A DNA stretch of 37,662 bases from the NCBI GenBank assembly GCA_001821295.1, contig MHSK01000010.1, positions 1-37,662 on the forward strand, written 5' to 3'. Below are positions 6,676 to 36,416 of the stretch, in pieces. Position numbers and translations under genes: made by a program. The notes under the pieces were generated by a model that was not told where the DNA came from, made no database searches, and worked only from the letters and a program-made list of their open reading frames with translations. This stretch comes from Candidatus Taylorbacteria bacterium RIFCSPLOWO2_12_FULL_43_20 (lineage in GTDB: Bacteria > Patescibacteriota > Minisyncoccia > Phycocordibacterales > HO2-43-120). The stretch's first letter is position 1, and each line of letters begins with the position of its first letter.

Positions 6676-6811
6676 AATTTTGTGTGCTTGGTGTAAGGTT
6701 TCTACATATGTATATTATCCATTAATTTGCTTTTGTAAACTTGAATTGATGTTGACACCGCTTAACGAAAAGCTCACGCGATACCAATATACGAATTGAT
6801 ACGAATATACA
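6676..6811. other. AT-rich spacer with short repeats
   Basis: It holds CGCTTAACGAAAAGCTCACGCG (6759-6780, a partial form of the ACGAAAAG repeat) and short direct repeats of ATACGAAT leading into the 155-bp repeat. No gene is seen. Confidence 0.4.
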
Positions 6812-6966
6812 ACTCCGACGCTTAGGTCGGAGTTCCGACCGAAGCGTCGGGGATGAATACGAATGAGACAGAAAAGCAAAGACACCCCATCCCTCGTAAG
6901 AACGAGGACTTCCCCTCTAAAGAGGGGAAGAGGGGGAACGCCCTGCGGTGCCGCTCTTAAAATTTA
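6812..6966. repeat. 155-bp modular palindromic repeat, copy P1
   Basis: Module A is a long hairpin: CCGACGCTTAGGTCGG pairs with CCGACCGAAGCGTCGG with one mismatch. Module B has CCTCGT/ACGAGG followed by CTTCCCCTCT/AGAGGGGAAG. The unit ends in CTTAAAATTTA. P2 at 10041-10195 is the same apart from two adjacent bases, in direct orientation. Shorter relatives lie at 10723, 11784 and 11936. Confidence 0.9.
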
Positions 6967-8060: not shown

Positions 8061-8088
8061 TGTCATTCCCGCTTTCGCGGGAATGACA
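8061..8088. repeat. GCGGGAATGACA repeat, single-hairpin copy (R1)
   Basis: TGTCATTCCCGC (8061-8072) pairs with GCGGGAATGACA (8077-8088) across TTTC. The flank ATGCGTAAGTCC (8093) is the outer arm seen beside other copies. Confidence 0.85.
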
Positions 8089-10040: not shown

Positions 10041-10195
10041 ACTCCGACGCTTAGGTCGGAGGCCCGACCGAAGCGTCGGGGATGAATACGAATGAGACAG
10101 AAAAGCAAAGACACCCCATCCCTCGTAAGAACGAGGACTTCCCCTCTAAAGAGGGGAAGAGGGGGAACGCCCTGCGGTGCCGCTCTTAAAATTTA
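10041..10195. repeat. 155-bp modular palindromic repeat, copy P2
   Basis: It differs from P1 (6812-6966) only at two adjacent positions in the loop of hairpin A (GC for TT) and lies in the same orientation. The two copies bracket the tandem VOC gene and the pyr pair. Confidence 0.9.
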
Positions 10196-10722: not shown

Positions 10723-10799
10723 ACTGCAACGCTTCGGTCGAAGCTCCGACCGAAGCGTTGGGGATGAATAACGCCATGTGGTGCCGATATTAAAATTTA
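10723..10799. repeat. Short copy P3 of the modular repeat
   Basis: The hairpin CAACGCTTCGGTCG / CGACCGAAGCGTTG is perfect, then GGGGATGAATA joins directly to a short form of the tail (ATTAAAATTTA). Module B is missing. The final TTA is the stop codon of the minus-strand protease. Confidence 0.8.
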
Positions 10800-11717: not shown

Positions 11718-11783
11718 ATTTTAAATATTCTACTTTATTTTAAGCAAATGTACACACGCAGGCGGACGCGATGCTAATATACG
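11718..11783. other. Short AT-rich spacer upstream of the protease
   Basis: It holds GCGGACGCGATGCTAATAT (11763-11781), also present before P2 (GCGCGATGCTAATAT, 9990-10004), where about 34 extra bases separate it from module A. Nothing else is recognised. Confidence 0.4.
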
Positions 11784-11852
11784 ACTCCGACGCTTCGGTC
11801 GGAGCCCCGACCGAAGCGTCGGGGATGAATACGAACAAGAGAAGAAGACACT
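11784..11852. repeat. Partial copy P4 of the modular repeat
   Basis: The module A hairpin is a perfect 16-bp stem here (CCGACGCTTCGGTCGG with CCGACCGAAGCGTCGG), followed by GGGGATGAATACGAA and a changed GAGAAGAAGACAC tail. Confidence 0.85.
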
Positions 11853-16631: not shown

Positions 16632-16774
16632 GTAACCGCTCACAGAGCCGAATAACCCGCTAACTGTAACACTTTTTTTTCTGTCATTCCCGCGAAGGCG
16701 GGAATCCAGATTATAAAGATGGTCTAGATTCCCGCCTTCGCGGGAATGACAGTCCTCGGGGTGTGAGCGGTTAC
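16632..16774. repeat. Composite GCGGGAATGACA repeat (R2)
   Basis: The core is TGTCATTCCCGCGAAGGCGGGAAT and its inverse (16682-16751). Outer arms GTAACCGCTCAC (16632) and GTGAGCGGTTAC (16763-16774) are also inverted, so the whole unit is about 143 bp. A run of eight T precedes the core. It fills the gap between smc and rnr. Confidence 0.85.
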
Positions 16775-18909: not shown

Positions 18910-18993
18910 CTTTCCCTCTAAAGAGGGGGAAGAAGACATCGCCCGTCTGAAGAATGTCAACACTTAGTGTTGACATTCTTCAGTGAAGCGATG
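18910..18993. repeat. Module-B-like hairpin and AAGAATGTCAAC palindrome
   Basis: First, CTTTCCCTCT (18910-18919) pairs with AGAGGGGGAAG. Then CATCGC (18937-18942) and GCGATG (18988-18993) enclose a perfect 18-1-18 palindrome with arms CTGAAGAATGTCAACACT (18947-18964) and its complement (18966-18983). The second palindrome ends just before the rpsP -35. A related one lies at 21970. Confidence 0.8.
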
Positions 18994-19429: not shown

Positions 19430-19486
19430 CCGCTGTCGTCTCTGTTCACAAAACCGAGTAATCCGCTAACCGCAACTCTTTTTTTC

Positions 19487-19555
19487 TGTCATTCCCGCGA
19501 AGGCGGGAATCCAGATTTAAATACTTGCTAGATTCCCGCCTTCGCGGGAATGACA
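19487..19555. repeat. GCGGGAATGACA repeat, double-hairpin copy (R3)
   Basis: TGTCATTCCCGCGAAGGCGGGAAT and its inverse are separated by a short variable centre. A truncated GCGCGGGAATGACAC follows (19561 on), as do GGTGTGAGAGC and an upstream run of T. Confidence 0.85.
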
Positions 19556-19749
19556 GAGGAGCGCGGGAATGACACCTATCAAGGTGTGAGAGCTTTTCCG
19601 CTATCACGTTGCATTAATACGTGTTTGTAATATAATGTTTCCAGCAGGCAGGGGCGTAGGTCAACGATTCTTTTCTGCACTTATTTATTAAGATTGATAA
19701 GATTGAGCCGGAGCGGTCGTAAGAACGATTTAGATTCGGCGAAAATAAA
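19556..19749. other. Spacer upstream of khpA
   Basis: Apart from the repeat tail, it holds a TTGCATTAATACGTGTTTGTAATATAATG stretch (19608-19636) with a possible TTGCAT -35 and TATAAT at 19630-19635. This would give a leader of about 110 nt for khpA. I see no other feature. Confidence 0.35.
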
Positions 19750-21142: not shown

Positions 21143-21215
21143 TGTCATTCCCGCGAAAGCGGGAATCCAGAGTATACAGATAAGATCCTGGATTCCCGCT
21201 TTCGCGGGAATGACA
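21143..21215. repeat. GCGGGAATGACA repeat, double-hairpin copy (R4)
   Basis: TGTCATTCCCGCGAAAGCGGGAAT with its inverse; the centre is CCAGAGTATACAGATAAG. It is followed by ATGCGCAAGTTC (21219), the outer arm seen with R1 and R5. Confidence 0.85.
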
Positions 21216-21969: not shown

Positions 21970-22020
21970 CCCCCAAGAATGTCAACGCTAAGCGTTGACA
22001 TGCGTTGACATTCTTGGGGG
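21970..22020. repeat. Large palindrome between the HAD gene and rpoB
   Basis: CCCCCAAGAATGTCAACGC (21970-21988) pairs perfectly with 22002-22020. The 13 bases between give a second fold, ATGTCAACGCT with AGCGTTGACAT (21980-22001, one-base centre). GCGTTGACAT is directly duplicated. It is related to the palindrome at 18947-18983. Confidence 0.8.
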
Positions 22021-29205: not shown

Positions 29206-29298
29206 TGTCATTCTCGCGAAAGCTCTGTCATTCCCGCGAAGGCGGGAATCCATGGTCTTATCTGCATACTCTAGATTCCCGCCTTCGCGGGAATGACA
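29206..29298. repeat. GCGGGAATGACA repeat with partial 5' duplicate (R5)
   Basis: A partial TGTCATTCTCGCGAAAGC (29206) is followed by the complete double hairpin (29226-29298) and then TCAAACGCGTAAGTCTC, the outer arm. The repeat ends about 20 bp before the dnaG -10 box. Confidence 0.85.
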
Positions 29299-31098: not shown

Positions 31099-31189
31099 TG
31101 TCATTCCCGCACTCCTTGTCATTCCCGCGAAGGCGGGAATCCAGAGCATACAGATAAGGCCATGGATTCCCGCCTTCGCGGGAATGACA
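31099..31189. repeat. GCGGGAATGACA repeat with partial 5' duplicate (R6)
   Basis: The outer arm GAACTTACGCGATTGA (31083) leads into a partial TGTCATTCCCGC (31099), then the complete double hairpin 31117-31189. The outer arm is the complement of that flanking R5 (one change in the core). Confidence 0.85.
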
Positions 31190-31248
31190 GATGGGGAATA
31201 GTTTAAATAAACTGAATTGCATAAACTTTATTATATTTGAACATTATT

Positions 31249-32475
31249 ATGGCAAAGAAAACGAAAAAAATAATTTCACGAAGCAAAGCCAAAAAAAAAT
31301 CTGAAGCGAAGAAATCCGCGTCGGCGTCCTCGTCCGGCAAGAAGTTGAAAATAAACCGAAAAAAAACCGAAAAGCCGAACGGCGGCATTAAGATGGACAA
31401 GAAGACGGCGGAGCTGGCCAAGAAATCCGAGCGGCTTCTCCAGAAAGGCAGAGAGAAGGGCTTTGTCACTTATGACGAGATCATTCGAGAATTTCCCACT
31501 GTTGAGGAGGATATAGTTTTTTTGGACCATTTGTATGAAAAATTTTCCGCCGCCGGTATTGATGTATTGGAGGGAGGAGGAATGCTTGATTTTCAGGAGG
31601 AGCTTAACGGCAAGAAAAACGCCTATCTCAAAGGCGATGCATCTTACGATTCAATCCAGATGTACTTGAAGGAGATCGGCCAATATCCATTGATACTCGC
31701 GCAGCAAGAGAAAGATCTTGCTAAACGCATAGAAAAGGGAGATGAGGAGGCGAAGAATCTTTTGGCCAGGGCCAACCTTCGGCTGGTGGTATCAATTGCA
31801 AAGAAATACGTCGGCAGAAGCCCGGACCTCACTTTGCTGGATCTTATACAAGAAGGAAATCTTGGGCTGTTCAAGGCCGTTGATAAATTTGATTGGACCA
31901 AAGGGTACAAATTTTCAACATACGCGACGTGGTGGATAAGGCAGGCCATTACTCGAGCTCTGGCTGATCAGTCGCGAACCATACGTGTTCCTGTCCATAT
32001 GGTGGAGACGATAGCCAAGTACAAGCAAGTGGTTCGTCGCTTGTCACAAGACTTGGGACGAGACCCTCTGCCCGAAGAAATAGCCGTGGAAATGGGATTG
32101 GAAGTTGAAAAAATATATAATATTGAAAAAATTGACCAGGATACCGTTTCTCTTGAGAGTCCCGTAGGAGACGACGGCGATGATTCCAAATCAACATTGG
32201 GTGATTTTATATCAGATGACAAGATATTATCTCCCGACCATGAATCATCCAGACGCATATTGGCTGATCAGGTCAAGCAAATACTTAATGATCTGTCGGA
32301 AAAAGAGAAGCAGATTTTGGAGATGAGACACGGCCTTATGGATGGCGTTACTCACACCTTGGAAGAAGTGGGACAGAAGTTCGGAGTAACAAGGGAGCGC
32401 ATCAGGCAAATTGAAGCAAAAGCGCATGAAAAAATCCGCCAGCACGAAAAAGTCAATCGGTTAAAAAACTACTAA
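31249..32475 (+). CDS. rpoD: Primary sigma factor (RpoD/SigA)
   Basis: The 408-residue protein has a lysine-rich N-terminal tail (about 1-60), then region 1.2 ([18 protein letters not shown]), regions 2.1-2.4 ([14 protein letters not shown] through [19 protein letters not shown]), region 3 ([12 protein letters not shown]) and region 4.2 ([22 protein letters not shown]). The residues that read the -10 (Gln and Thr of RQAITR) and the extended -10 (His and Glu of VHMVET) match E. coli sigma70. This agrees with the many TGnTATAAT-like promoters in this window. I prefer ATG 31249 to an in-frame TTG at 31237. It follows dnaG, the usual order. Confidence 0.95.
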
Positions 32476-32484
32476 TTTGTTACG

Positions 32485-32541
32485 CAAATTTTAAATTTAT
32501 AATTTTAAATTATAAAATAATTTTAAAATTATAAAAAATCC
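32485..32541. other. AT-rich stretch with self-complementary runs after rpoD
   Basis: Overlapping dyads of TTATAATTTTAAA and its complement form a region with almost no G or C. It may serve as a weak terminator or low-stability DNA. Confidence 0.35.
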
Positions 32542-32555
32542 TCCAGTTTGGCTTT

Positions 32556-32594
32556 ATTTCTTGTTATGATAGTCTGACTATCATAACAAGAAAT
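32556..32594. repeat. REP-like palindrome, left of the transposase
   Basis: ATTTCTTGTTATGATAGTC (32556-32574) pairs perfectly with 32576-32594 around one base. Its core TTATGATAGTC recurs in the palindrome at 33396. It abuts the transposase stop codon. Confidence 0.85.
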
Positions 32595-32595
32595 T

Positions 32596-33351
32596 CTATT
32601 CAAATTGACCAGATATAAGATCGTTCATTTCTCCATTGTCTTCACTTGTTACAATGTTTTCTCTGCCGTGGATCATATCTTTACAGAGTCTTTTAAACTC
32701 ATCTGGACGGCCAATAATTCTTTTTAATAATTCAGGGTTGACTATTGGAGACTGCCTTCCGCTAATGTAGTCAGCTAGACTTGTGAAAGGATATTTTATT
32801 GCCCATAGCCAGGCGTCGTCAAAATTTTGAACAGCCCATTCATATCCTTTTGGATGCATTTCAAATGTGTTTTTTAACATTATATAAGGAGCTAGCCAAA
32901 GAAGATACTTATCATCACGTACAACTTTTCCCCTGTAAGAGCCTTGAAAAATACTTCCTTTGGTCAGGTATTTTTCATTAAAATGGTTTGACATACTTTG
33001 ACCAAGTTTTTGCATGAAGCTAGATATCCCGTCCTTTTTGATTTCTTCTAACAATAAATGAAAATGATTATCAAGAAGCGTGAATGCTAGGATATTAACC
33101 AGCGGGTTTTGTGGCGGCCAATTATCTGGTCTGTAAAATATTATCTTGCCGGTACCCAACTTCTTATCGCTGATCTGATTTTGTTTATCGCTAAGACGGA
33201 ACCAATATTGATCAAAATACGCATCATTGAGATAGTAGAGAGATCTTATGAAACGCCAACAATCAGATTTATCTCGCACAATATTAAGCCCACGCCCACC
33301 TCTTTTTGTGCAGTGAATTATGGACCCGATTTCTGTTGGTTCAACTCTCAT
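32596..33351 (-). CDS. REP-associated tyrosine transposase (Y1/HUH)
   Basis: The 251-residue protein starts with RVEPTEIGSIIHCTKRGGRG and has the HUH motif as LLDNHFHLLLEE (His, any residue, His). The catalytic tyrosine is expected in the helix SMSNHFNEKYLTKGSIFQGSYRGK. FTLLDNHFHLL and FQGSYRGKVV are typical of the Y1_Tnp family. These enzymes nick single-stranded DNA at hairpins and are thought to mobilise REP sequences. On the minus strand TATAAT lies 10 nt before the ATG. The flanking palindromes are probably its recognition structures. The C-terminal 60 residues are variable and not assigned. Confidence 0.9.
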   Translation of the reverse strand: MRVEPTEIGSIIHCTKRGGRGLNIVRDKSDCWRFIRSLYYLNDAYFDQYWFRLSDKQNQISDKKLGTGKIIFYRPDNWPPQNPLVNILAFTLLDNHFHLLLEEIKKDGISSFMQKLGQSMSNHFNEKYLTKGSIFQGSYRGKVVRDDKYLLWLAPYIMLKNTFEMHPKGYEWAVQNFDDAWLWAIKYPFTSLADYISGRQSPIVNPELLKRIIGRPDEFKRLCKDMIHGRENIVTSEDNGEMNDLISGQFE

Positions 33352-33395
33352 TTATAAAATAATTATACACGATAATCAAAGCAAAGTTAGTAGCA

Positions 33396-33422
33396 GTTTA
33401 TGATAGTCAGACTATCATAAAC
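33396..33422. repeat. REP-like palindrome, right of the transposase
   Basis: GTTTATGATAGTC (33396-33408) pairs perfectly with GACTATCATAAAC (33410-33422). It shares the 11-base core with 32556-32594; outside the core the two differ. Confidence 0.85.
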
Positions 33423-33455
33423 ATAGAGGTTGTCGCAAAACCACGTTTGTTCTCG

Positions 33456-33464
33456 TGTTATAAT
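33456..33464 (+). promoter_or_regulatory. Extended -10 promoter of the UvrD-like gene
   Basis: TGTTATAAT (hexamer 33459-33464) ends 6 nt before ATG 33471, so the transcript would start at the AUG. It settles the start codon in favour of 33471. Confidence 0.7.
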
Positions 33465-33470
33465 TGCGCC

Positions 33471-36416
33471 ATGATGAGTGATGTGTTTTATGGTCTATAC
33501 AATAAGCTGAACAGTGAGCAGAGGAAGGCCGTTCGCGAGATTGAGGGCCCCGTGATGGTCATTGCCGGGCCGGGCACGGGAAAAACGACTATTCTGACTC
33601 TGCGCATAGCGAATATTCTGAGACAAACTGACACTCCTCCGGACGGTATTTTGGCGCTGACGTTTACAGACGCCGGTGTGACTGCCATAAAAAAGAAATT
33701 GCGCGAGATCATCGGTTCGCCCGCGGACTCTGTCAGGGTGCATACTTTTCACAGTTTTGCCGTTTCCATAATCAAAGAATTTCCGGAATATTTTTCCTTC
33801 GCGAGCGGCGCGTCTCTTGTGAATGAGATTGAAGTTGAGATGCTTGTCGCGCGAATTTTGGAAAATCCAAAGTATAAAAACCTGCGGCCGTTCGGTAGGC
33901 CTGAGCAGTATATATCGCCGGTTATAAACGCTGTGAGCGTGTGCAAAAAGGAAGCGATCCGGCCGTCCGATGTCAAGATATTTATCAAGGAAGAAATTGA
34001 CGGAATAAAGGTTGATGAGAGTTCCTATTCTACTCGCGGAAAAACAAAGGGAGGCCTGAAAGCGGAAGCTTTAAAAAAGATTGAGAAATGCGAAAAAACG
34101 CTTCTTTTTGCCGATGTTTTCTCGGATTACGAAACATTGAAAAAAGAGATGGACAAATATGATTATGACGACATCATTCAGGAATTCACCGAATCTTTAA
34201 AAAATACGGAGCTTTTGCTTCGGCTGGTTCAGGAAAAATTTCTCTATGTTTTGATTGATGAACACCAGGATACGAATGATTCTCAAAACGGCATCATCAT
34301 GTCCATAGCGGATTTTTTTGACAGCCCCAATATTTTCATTGTCGGTGATGAAAAACAAGCCATCTACAGATTTCAAGGGGCGTCCGTGGAAAACTTTCTC
34401 AAGTTTGAAAAAGTTTGGCGCGACATGAAAATAATCCGGCTTGGCGACAATTACCGTTCTCATCAGCTCATATTGGACGCGGCATTCTCTATGATTGAGA
34501 ATAATTACGAGCCCGGACAATTTGAAAATTTGCGAGTTCGGCTCAAGTCTGCCACAAAAAATGAAACGAGGCCGGTACGCATTGTAACCGCTCGCGCGGA
34601 GCATGCGGCGGAAAGCTATCTCGCAAACGAGGTTTCCAAAATATCCAAAGAATATCCACAGGGTAAAATTGCCGTAGTCGTTCGCACCAACAAAGATTTA
34701 GACAAGATAGCCCGCTTGTTTTCAATGTCAAAGATTCCATACGCGGCGGAAAGAAGCGTGGATGTCATGGGTGCCCCTTTGGGCTCGCTTTTTTTGGACA
34801 CGCTCGCGGCGATAGCTGATACAGGGAAGCCCGAACTATTGGCGCGCTCCGTGGCGGGGGGAGCGTGGGATGTCAGCTTTGGAGAACGTGTTTCAATAAT
34901 AAAGGACATGCGAGCGGGGCGTTATGAAGCGGCGTCGAGGAGAATTACCGGTTTTGAAGAAGCCGCGAGAACGGCAAAGACCGCGGAACCGATTCAATTT
35001 TTATATTTGCTGGCTCAGTTGACCAAAATGGAAGAAATGTTTTCACGGAGTCCTGAATCCGTTGAAATTTGGCGCGGCATTATTTCGCTCGCCGAAAAGA
35101 TTCAAAAAGAGGGGAATGGAGCGGGAAGCGTTTTTTCTATGTCGGAAAAAATCTCGGCTTACCGCAATTCCAAGCGCGGAGTAAATGTAAAAGTCTGGTC
35201 GGGAACGAACGAATCATCGGTGAGGGTAATGACCGCGCACGCCAGCAAGGGATTGGAGTTTGATTTTGTTTTCATACCTTACGCTTCGGAAGAGTCATGG
35301 CTAAAATCTGCCAGGCGCGAGTTTTTTATTCTGCCAAAGATGGATGATAACGGAGATGATATCAAAGACGCCAGGCGCTTATTTTATGTGGCTCTTACGA
35401 GAGCCAAGAGTCATGTTGAAATTATTTGTTCGGAAAAAGACCGCGGCGGCGACGTTCTCATGCCCCTTAGGTTCATATCGGAGCTTGATCCATCCTGCGT
35501 GGAATACGGGCTCGCGCCAGAGCAAGATTCTACCACTGGCATTTTTCCTTTGACACATGGATTGGAAAGAGGGGAGAGAGATACCGGGACTGTGGAATAC
35601 GCGAAGCATGTATTGACGGACTCGGGTTTATCCGTAACAGCTCTGAACCATTACATAGAGTGCCCGCGTAAATTTTTGTACAAGAGCATTTTGAAATTAC
35701 CTGAGCCACCTTCGGCTCCGGCGGAAAAGGGGACCGCTCTGCATGAGGCGATATCAGCGCTCTGGCGATTTGCCGGCAGAAAAGAATTCTCGGAGGTGCA
35801 GATTCAAGATATTCTTTTGCGAGTCGCGAAGAAATATCTGGAGGAAAAATCATTTCTGTCAAAGCATGAAAGAGACGCTGTTATAAAGGAGATTGAGGAC
35901 GAGGCGCCGAAGATATCCAAACATCTCATGCCGCATTTCCGGACCGCTGACCAAGTGTTCGCGGAAAACTGGTACGAAAGCGCTTTTCACACTGAGCACG
36001 CGGGTTCTCGCATCGGAATAACCATTCATGGCAAATTGGATGCTGTTATATCAGGTTCTGGCGGCGTTGCAGTTTATGATTACAAATCAAGAGGCGCCAT
36101 GTCGGAGGCGGAAATCAGAGGCGAGACAAAAAATTCCGACGGAAGTTATTTCCGCCAGCTTGTGTTTTATCGCCTGTTGCTTGAAAATGATCCGAGATTT
36201 TCGGGTAAGGTACGGACATTTTTCCTCTATTTCATAAAACCGGACAAACACGGACATTGCAAAGAAATGGCAATTTCATCAGTCAATGAGGATATAGCTA
36301 ATATAATAGAAGAGATAAGAAAGCTTGTCGTCGGCGTATGGAACGGTGATTTTCTGTCAAATGGCTGCAACCGCAACGATTGTCAGTGGTGCAGATTGAT
36401 GGTGGATACCACATGA
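33471..36416 (+). CDS. UvrD-like helicase fused to AddB/RecB-type Fe-S nuclease
   Basis: The 981-residue protein has superfamily 1A helicase motifs: Q-motif LNSEQRKAV, Walker A AGPGTGKT (32-39), motif Ia LALTFTDAG, Walker B VLIDEHQDT, motif III GDEKQAIYRFQGA, NYRSHQ, TAHASKGLEFDFVFI and RRLFYVALTRAK. The last 250 residues are a PD-(D/E)XK nuclease (GKLDAVI, VYDYKSRG). Cysteines at SVTALNHYIECPRKFLY and CNRNDCQWC match the four-cysteine iron-sulfur staple of AddB-like nucleases. It is likely a DNA-end processing enzyme in one chain. The Walker B carries DEHQD where DEFQD or DEYQD is usual. The final residues VDTT come from a dispersed repeat. Confidence 0.9.
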   Translation: MMSDVFYGLYNKLNSEQRKAVREIEGPVMVIAGPGTGKTTILTLRIANILRQTDTPPDGILALTFTDAGVTAIKKKLREIIGSPADSVRVHTFHSFAVSIIKEFPEYFSFASGASLVNEIEVEMLVARILENPKYKNLRPFGRPEQYISPVINAVSVCKKEAIRPSDVKIFIKEEIDGIKVDESSYSTRGKTKGGLKAEALKKIEKCEKTLLFADVFSDYETLKKEMDKYDYDDIIQEFTESLKNTELLLRLVQEKFLYVLIDEHQDTNDSQNGIIMSIADFFDSPNIFIVGDEKQAIYRFQGASVENFLKFEKVWRDMKIIRLGDNYRSHQLILDAAFSMIENNYEPGQFENLRVRLKSATKNETRPVRIVTARAEHAAESYLANEVSKISKEYPQGKIAVVVRTNKDLDKIARLFSMSKIPYAAERSVDVMGAPLGSLFLDTLAAIADTGKPELLARSVAGGAWDVSFGERVSIIKDMRAGRYEAASRRITGFEEAARTAKTAEPIQFLYLLAQLTKMEEMFSRSPESVEIWRGIISLAEKIQKEGNGAGSVFSMSEKISAYRNSKRGVNVKVWSGTNESSVRVMTAHASKGLEFDFVFIPYASEESWLKSARREFFILPKMDDNGDDIKDARRLFYVALTRAKSHVEIICSEKDRGGDVLMPLRFISELDPSCVEYGLAPEQDSTTGIFPLTHGLERGERDTGTVEYAKHVLTDSGLSVTALNHYIECPRKFLYKSILKLPEPPSAPAEKGTALHEAISALWRFAGRKEFSEVQIQDILLRVAKKYLEEKSFLSKHERDAVIKEIEDEAPKISKHLMPHFRTADQVFAENWYESAFHTEHAGSRIGITIHGKLDAVISGSGGVAVYDYKSRGAMSEAEIRGETKNSDGSYFRQLVFYRLLLENDPRFSGKVRTFFLYFIKPDKHGHCKEMAISSVNEDIANIIEEIRKLVVGVWNGDFLSNGCNRNDCQWCRLMVDTT

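Follow-up and report, generated by a model that had tools for sequence, protein, structure and literature searches.

A RAYT-type transposase gene and its symmetric palindromes in a Candidatus Taylorbacteria genome

The way in which transposases of the RAYT type choose their repeats, and the way in which these repeats spread, are known from a handful of proteobacterial enzymes, and the literature searched contains no report that links RAYTs to Parcubacteria. A transposase gene in Candidatus Taylorbacteria bacterium RIFCSPLOWO2_12_FULL_43_20 is bracketed by two perfect palindromes, which raises the question of whether gene and palindromes form a REPtron, that is, a RAYT gene flanked by its cognate REP-type hairpins, and of how such palindromes are made. 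The DNA analysed, referred to as the window, is a stretch of 37,662 nucleotides and represents contig C10 of a 1.0-Mb genome. The evidence described below makes it very probable that the unit is a REPtron, which carries an unusually symmetric hairpin.

The transposase gene and its flanking palindromes

The gene is located at positions 32596-33351 on the minus strand and encodes a Y1/HUH transposase of the RAYT type with 251 amino acids (P0001). Its neighbours on either side, both encoded on the plus strand, are a sigma-factor gene (31237-32475) and a helicase gene (33447-36416). A palindrome scan combined with folding identified one cognate palindrome on either side of the gene, neither of which is assigned to a strand. 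The left or downstream palindrome (32556-32594) consists of two arms of 19 nt around a one-base centre, ATTTCTTGTTATGATAGTC-T-GACTATCATAACAAGAAAT, and ends 1 nt before the stop codon at 32596-32598. The right or upstream palindrome (33396-33422) has arms of 13 nt, likewise around a one-base centre, GTTTATGATAGTC-A-GACTATCATAAAC, and is separated from the transposase ATG by 44 nt and from the longest helicase ORF by 24 nt, lying upstream of both. Both are exact and share a core of 11 nt per arm, TTATGATAGTC-W-GACTATCATAA, beyond which their sequences diverge; the left palindrome continues for eight further bases, all of them perfectly paired. The sequence-only reading, which had described a transposase bracketed by palindromes with a common core, the left one at the stop codon, is thereby confirmed. 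It had also placed the right palindrome just upstream of the helicase promoter; its proximity to the helicase ORF holds, but the promoter is not established, because a promoter scan gave no match at the helicase. All four occurrences of the decamer TATGATAGTC in the window fall within these two palindromes, with a chance expectation of 0.03. Folded as single-stranded DNA, the left palindrome forms 18 bp and a 3-nt loop (dG -15.5 kcal/mol) and the right one 12 bp and a 3-nt loop (dG -8.5 kcal/mol); in both cases the loop is CTG or CAG, the stem is full, and none of the shuffled sequences folds equally well.

P0001 matches the Pfam family Y1_Tnp above the curated cut-off, while the NCBIfam model REP_Tyr_transpos (NF047646) scores 27 bits, below its curated cut-off of 80; since this model is an equivalog, the miss excludes the equivalog, not the superfamily. 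The HUH motif is present as HFH (residues 96-98), and a catalytic-type tyrosine, Tyr156, lies within the motif YIMLKN. H96, H98, Y156 and N161 are invariant in an alignment of 40 sequences, and because the catalytic parts are intact, the enzyme is likely to be active. An AlphaFold2 model built from the same alignment has a mean pLDDT of 88, and in the PDB it is matched best by the complex of E. coli TnpAREP with a REP hairpin (4er8; rank 1, probability 1.00), with the transposases of IS608 and ISDra2 ranking behind. The HUH motif with a single catalytic tyrosine of the Y1 family and the predicted TnpAREP fold agree with what is expected of a RAYT, as does the presence of a single copy per transposase type, the next paralogue in the same genome being only 31% identical. 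No relatives of the transposase were found among viral contigs.

Copies of the palindrome and related transposases

The 21-nt palindrome is present at five sites of the genome: the two at the unit and one each on C12, C31 and C26, where the C26 copy carries one mismatch; a reversed control pattern matched no site. According to the ORF lists, the three solitary copies all lie between genes, one of them about 8 nt past a stop codon, and the copy on C12 follows a stop codon. The genome thus holds solitary copies of the hairpin family that flanks the transposase, as is expected for a RAYT. A second whole unit is absent from the genome.

The core was detected in one of 296 other genomes of the order and is absent from the remaining 295. 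This genome, G180, contains five near-identical TATGATAGTC palindromes (L063-L065), in which the central base is mostly G or C. A single transposase of this kind was detected in the fragmented assembly, a distant one (34% identity) that lacks this core on its flanks, and a close relative was not detected. The G180 palindromes are either an orphan family, possibly through loss of the cognate gene or owing to an assembly gap, or a convergent one. In G001, a genome of the same genus, the helicase homologue comes directly after the sigma-factor gene (85% identical), and neither transposase nor palindrome lies in between. The unit was gained in the genome studied here or lost in its relative, and the comparison is compatible with both. 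A DNA-level empty-site junction could not be read from G001, as the sequences are too diverged and the helicases only 47% identical. At the G001 helicase locus (L066), a TGA and a TAA each interrupt the matched stretch once, and the homologue may be broken or frameshifted.

Additional hairpins are scattered over the window, and it had been suggested that a related enzyme might move them. This was right for one family, because the palindrome at 18947-18983, AATGTCAACACT-W-AGTGTTGACATT, and a second copy at 21970-22020 with one arm partly duplicated match the palindrome ATCCCCCAAGAATGTCAACGCT-W-AGCGTT..., which adjoins a paralogous transposase on contig C31 and is present in 25 copies genome-wide (hairpin of the paralogue: AATGTCAACGCT). 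The suggestion is not supported for the more abundant CATTCCCGCG and CCGACGCTT hairpins, which adjoin none of the four transposases examined. The arm duplications AGCGTTGACAT/GCGTTGACATTC found at 21970-22020 and at locus L077 are what template slippage at a hairpin would be expected to produce. In the C31 family, a strand bias of the outer flank faded once more copies were read. Several other repeats were recorded as well. The family TGTCATTCCCGCGAAGGCGGGAATCCAG, with loops of 12-23 nt, occurs at 16681-16752, 19485-19557, 21143-21215, 29226-29298 and 31117-31189, with partial copies near 8076 and 37446; no transposase was found to adjoin it, and it resembles the dRS3-type repeats of Neisseria. 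The family CTCCGACGCTTCGGTCGG...CCGACCGAAGCGTCGG is present at 6806-6859, 10044-10079, 11778-11831 and 10727-10760 and recurs at a distance of about 1.2 kb from the C31 paralogue. The fourth RAYT of the genome (L012, G000:C32) is flanked by repeats that look like the GTAG...CTAC double-foot type (GTAGGATGGGCACCATTCTACA).

A search of 297 genomes of the order yielded relatives of P0001 with identities of 34-57%, the best of them reaching the upper value. The clade that contains the window's protein comprises 41 rows with a support of 100/99, including one member from Ca. Taylorbacteria. Among 287 sampled genomes of the phylum, E values of 1e-30 were reached only in genomes of this order, to which the clade is restricted within the samples examined; its distribution is sporadic across many families and its proteins are strongly diverged. 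Matching perfect palindromes (arms of at least 8 nt, one-base centre, within 150 nt of the gene) were present on both sides of the gene in 17 of 41 loci and in none after 20 rounds of dinucleotide shuffling, and 39 of 41 loci have at least one such palindrome when one mismatch is allowed. Transposase-palindrome pairs are therefore present in about 40 relatives, and neither of the two outcomes that would have refuted the sequence-only reading, a lack of other copies in the genome and a lack of related pairs in relatives, was observed. One-base centres were found 55 times, compared to 1-13 times for each other loop size.

The arms of these palindromes are similar within a locus and differ between loci. 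Their inner motif is mostly GTC-W-GAC, with the variants ATC-W-GAT, GTT-T-GAC and GCC-T-GGC, whereas palindromes of more distant transposases mostly have G or C at the centre, e.g. GGTT-S-AACC. Arm similarity follows the transposase tree: between nearest transposases, 6.5 of 10 arm bases are identical, compared to 5.1 after permutation, a value reached by none of 10,000 permutations. Taken globally, the Mantel test gives a weak correlation (r -0.17, a strength matched in 156 of 5,000 permutations), whereas the nearest-neighbour test is clear. Loci L025 and L043, for instance, form a close pair with the arms TGTGGGTATC and TGTGGATATC. The genome G128 contains ten copies of its palindrome, G049 nine copies of a slightly different version that also flanks its own transposase, and two further genomes one copy each of a related palindrome. 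The palindrome of G005 has 25 copies in its own genome, and 29 other carriers lack it.

Palindromes can also be found within the transposase genes themselves. Ten loci carry a palindrome of their own family inside the ORF, in frame and around codons 53-73, and eight in-gene palindromes with arms of at least 9 nt were counted, compared to 0.3 expected from codon shuffles. Mapped onto P0001, the site corresponds to residues 52-66, at or next to the lowest-confidence stretch of the AlphaFold2 model (62-68); inspection by eye of this hotspot in the window's own transposase gene revealed no decayed palindrome.

Mobility, outward growth of stems and competing explanations

Direct evidence of mobility comes from G005, in which a palindrome-spacer-palindrome unit of about 96 bp is found beside the transposase and again at an unrelated site (G005:C4). 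Homology between the two copies stops at the palindromes or within a few bases of them on both sides; the movement is REPIN-like. In the solitary unit, a stretch of about 10 nt outside the palindrome mirrors the part of the unit's spacer that adjoins the palindrome (CTCACAACATT / AATGTTGTGAG); at the corresponding outer position of the other copy, the DNA is unrelated. This is the trace that fold-back copying through a hairpin would leave.

The same process may have shaped the stems in general. Beyond the core, perfect pairing continues in intact copies for a mean of 2.7 to 3.1 bases, compared to 0.33 expected by chance, and for up to 13 bases, and the added outer sequences vary from copy to copy; the left palindrome of the window with its eight extra pairs is an example of such outward growth. 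This could be due to selection for pairing or, alternatively, to the polymerase switching templates at the hairpin. Compensated pairs (G-C to A-T, G-C to C-G) are present in the families of the C31 paralogue and of G005, but 93 and 50 of 500 shuffles, respectively, score as high, and covariation is therefore not claimed as proof. Covariation counts alone are indecisive, and the pair of G005 units favours templated copying, so that stems probably lengthen outward by folding back and copying the adjacent DNA.

If the unit is a REPtron, as we consider very probable, its palindrome would become single-stranded, for example on the lagging-strand template, and either strand would fold into a stem of at least about 10 bp with a CAG or CTG triloop, the predicted substrate being the single-stranded own hairpin TTATGATAGTCWGACTATCATAA. 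The transposase would bind this hairpin through stem and loop, Tyr156 would cut next to it, and the ends would be joined elsewhere, which would spread single palindromes or palindrome-bounded segments and occasionally the whole gene, with an enzyme that may still be active today. Through fold-back copying at the hairpin, in the course of replication or of strand transfer, stems would stay paired and lengthen into the flanking DNA. Three findings count against the REPtron reading: GT[AG]G is absent from the own core, which has ATGA at that position; the genome contains only five copies; and G180 has the palindromes with no detectable close transposase. GTAG is found 2 nt outside one of ten ends of the window genome's own copies, as chance allows.

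An ordinary insertion sequence of the IS200 group, whose ends are the palindromes and whose remnants are the solitary copies, is an unlikely explanation, though the most probable of the alternatives. It would agree with the same-genus genome that lacks the unit and with the sporadic occurrence of strongly diverged proteins over many families of the order. However, IS200/IS605 elements are expected as several identical whole units, and none were found in multiple copies; instead, each transposase type is present once per genome and its palindrome many times, and the protein of 251 amino acids matches TnpAREP better than IS608 or ISDra2.

It is still less probable that the palindromes are double-stranded operators for a dimeric regulator, possibly the transposase itself, rather than hairpin substrates. 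Perfect odd palindromes near genes are typical of operators, and the right palindrome, 44 nt ahead of the transposase start, would be well placed for autoregulation. Against this, some copies follow genes and others lie within transposase ORFs, where a disordered loop is predicted, the variants GTT-T-GAC and CAC-CTA-GTG lose the central pair and keep the stem, which fits a loop and not a duplex site, and a whole palindrome-bounded segment has moved in G005. That the palindromes serve as transcription terminators or as stems that stabilise mRNA, having come to be shared by chance or selection, is scarcely credible. Stop codons do precede several of them, among these the left palindrome and the solitary C12 copy, but the stems are A/T-rich, no T-run follows them, sequence identity tracks the transposase and not the host, and a terminator scan of 32300-33600 returned none.

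Comparison with known RAYT and REP systems

The unit works like a REPtron and has the gene-level features of a RAYT, and its repeat lacks the canonical REP tag. The sequence-only reading had called it a complete RAYT unit; this interpretation is supported except for the tag. GT[AG]G is important for the activity of the TnpAREP enzymes tested so far. In canonical REPs, this tag marks the foot of the hairpin (PMC6006769, PMC8266576), REP-like repeats that lack it have been reported for subclass 2.6 and class 3 (PMC6006769), and the tested enzymes act on one strand only (PMC8266576). REPtrons of class 2 (RAYT/TnpAREP-REP, 4er8; Quentin et al. 2018, PMC6006769) have the same HUH/Y1 fold and flanking hairpins. 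As here, each of their enzymes has its own repeat family, solitary copies are intergenic and a genome can harbour several REPtrons. Unlike these systems, the copy described here has no GT[AG]G 5' to the hairpin foot and a perfectly paired, symmetric stem, so that both strands look alike; copy numbers of about 5-25 contrast with the hundreds typical of REPs, and the protein has 251 instead of 165 amino acids.

The consensus arm of the clade, TGTRGAAGTC-W, contains GTRG at positions -9 to -6 and its mirror image on the other arm, and GT[AG]G is intact at this position in 9 of 37 clade loci. By description, it resembles the 'double-foot' REPs (GT[AG]G ... C[TC]AC) of subclass 2.4 or RAYT group 4, which also include in-gene REPs comparable to the in-frame palindromes of this clade. 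The in-gene REPs of subclass 2.4, however, lie between HUH and the tyrosine (PMC6006769), whereas those of this clade lie before HUH, and the HUH-to-Tyr spacing of subclass 2.4 has a median of 88 (PMC6006769), compared to 60 here. The group 3 REPtron of Stenotrophomonas maltophilia has the same perfect stem and 3-nt loop, but there GTAG and an asymmetric loop give strand choice (PMC8266576), whereas the CWG loop found here is its own reverse complement. REPINs (PMC3116915) consist of two inverted repeats and a spacer that move as a unit, as observed in G005; mirrored copying of the spacer outward past the palindrome was not encountered in the passages on REP and REPIN systems examined.

One clade offers about 40 natural enzyme-hairpin pairs whose arms diverge with the protein, in genomes of near 1 Mb that allow every copy to be listed. 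Because the pairs diverge in step and all copies can be listed, a recognition code becomes testable by comparing enzyme and arm changes and by swaps. Symmetric, tag-poor hairpins also challenge the view that the tag sets the active strand, and outward-growing stems provide a sequence trace of how copies are made. It is tempting to speculate, albeit as a tentative proposal that we hold less likely than its opposite, that this clade uses fully symmetric, largely tag-free hairpins and that either strand could therefore serve as substrate. Flanking DNA would be copied back through the hairpin, and each new copy would thereby gain its own paired outer stem. Such self-building palindromes would differ from the strand-specific, tag-guided action shown for known TnpAREP.
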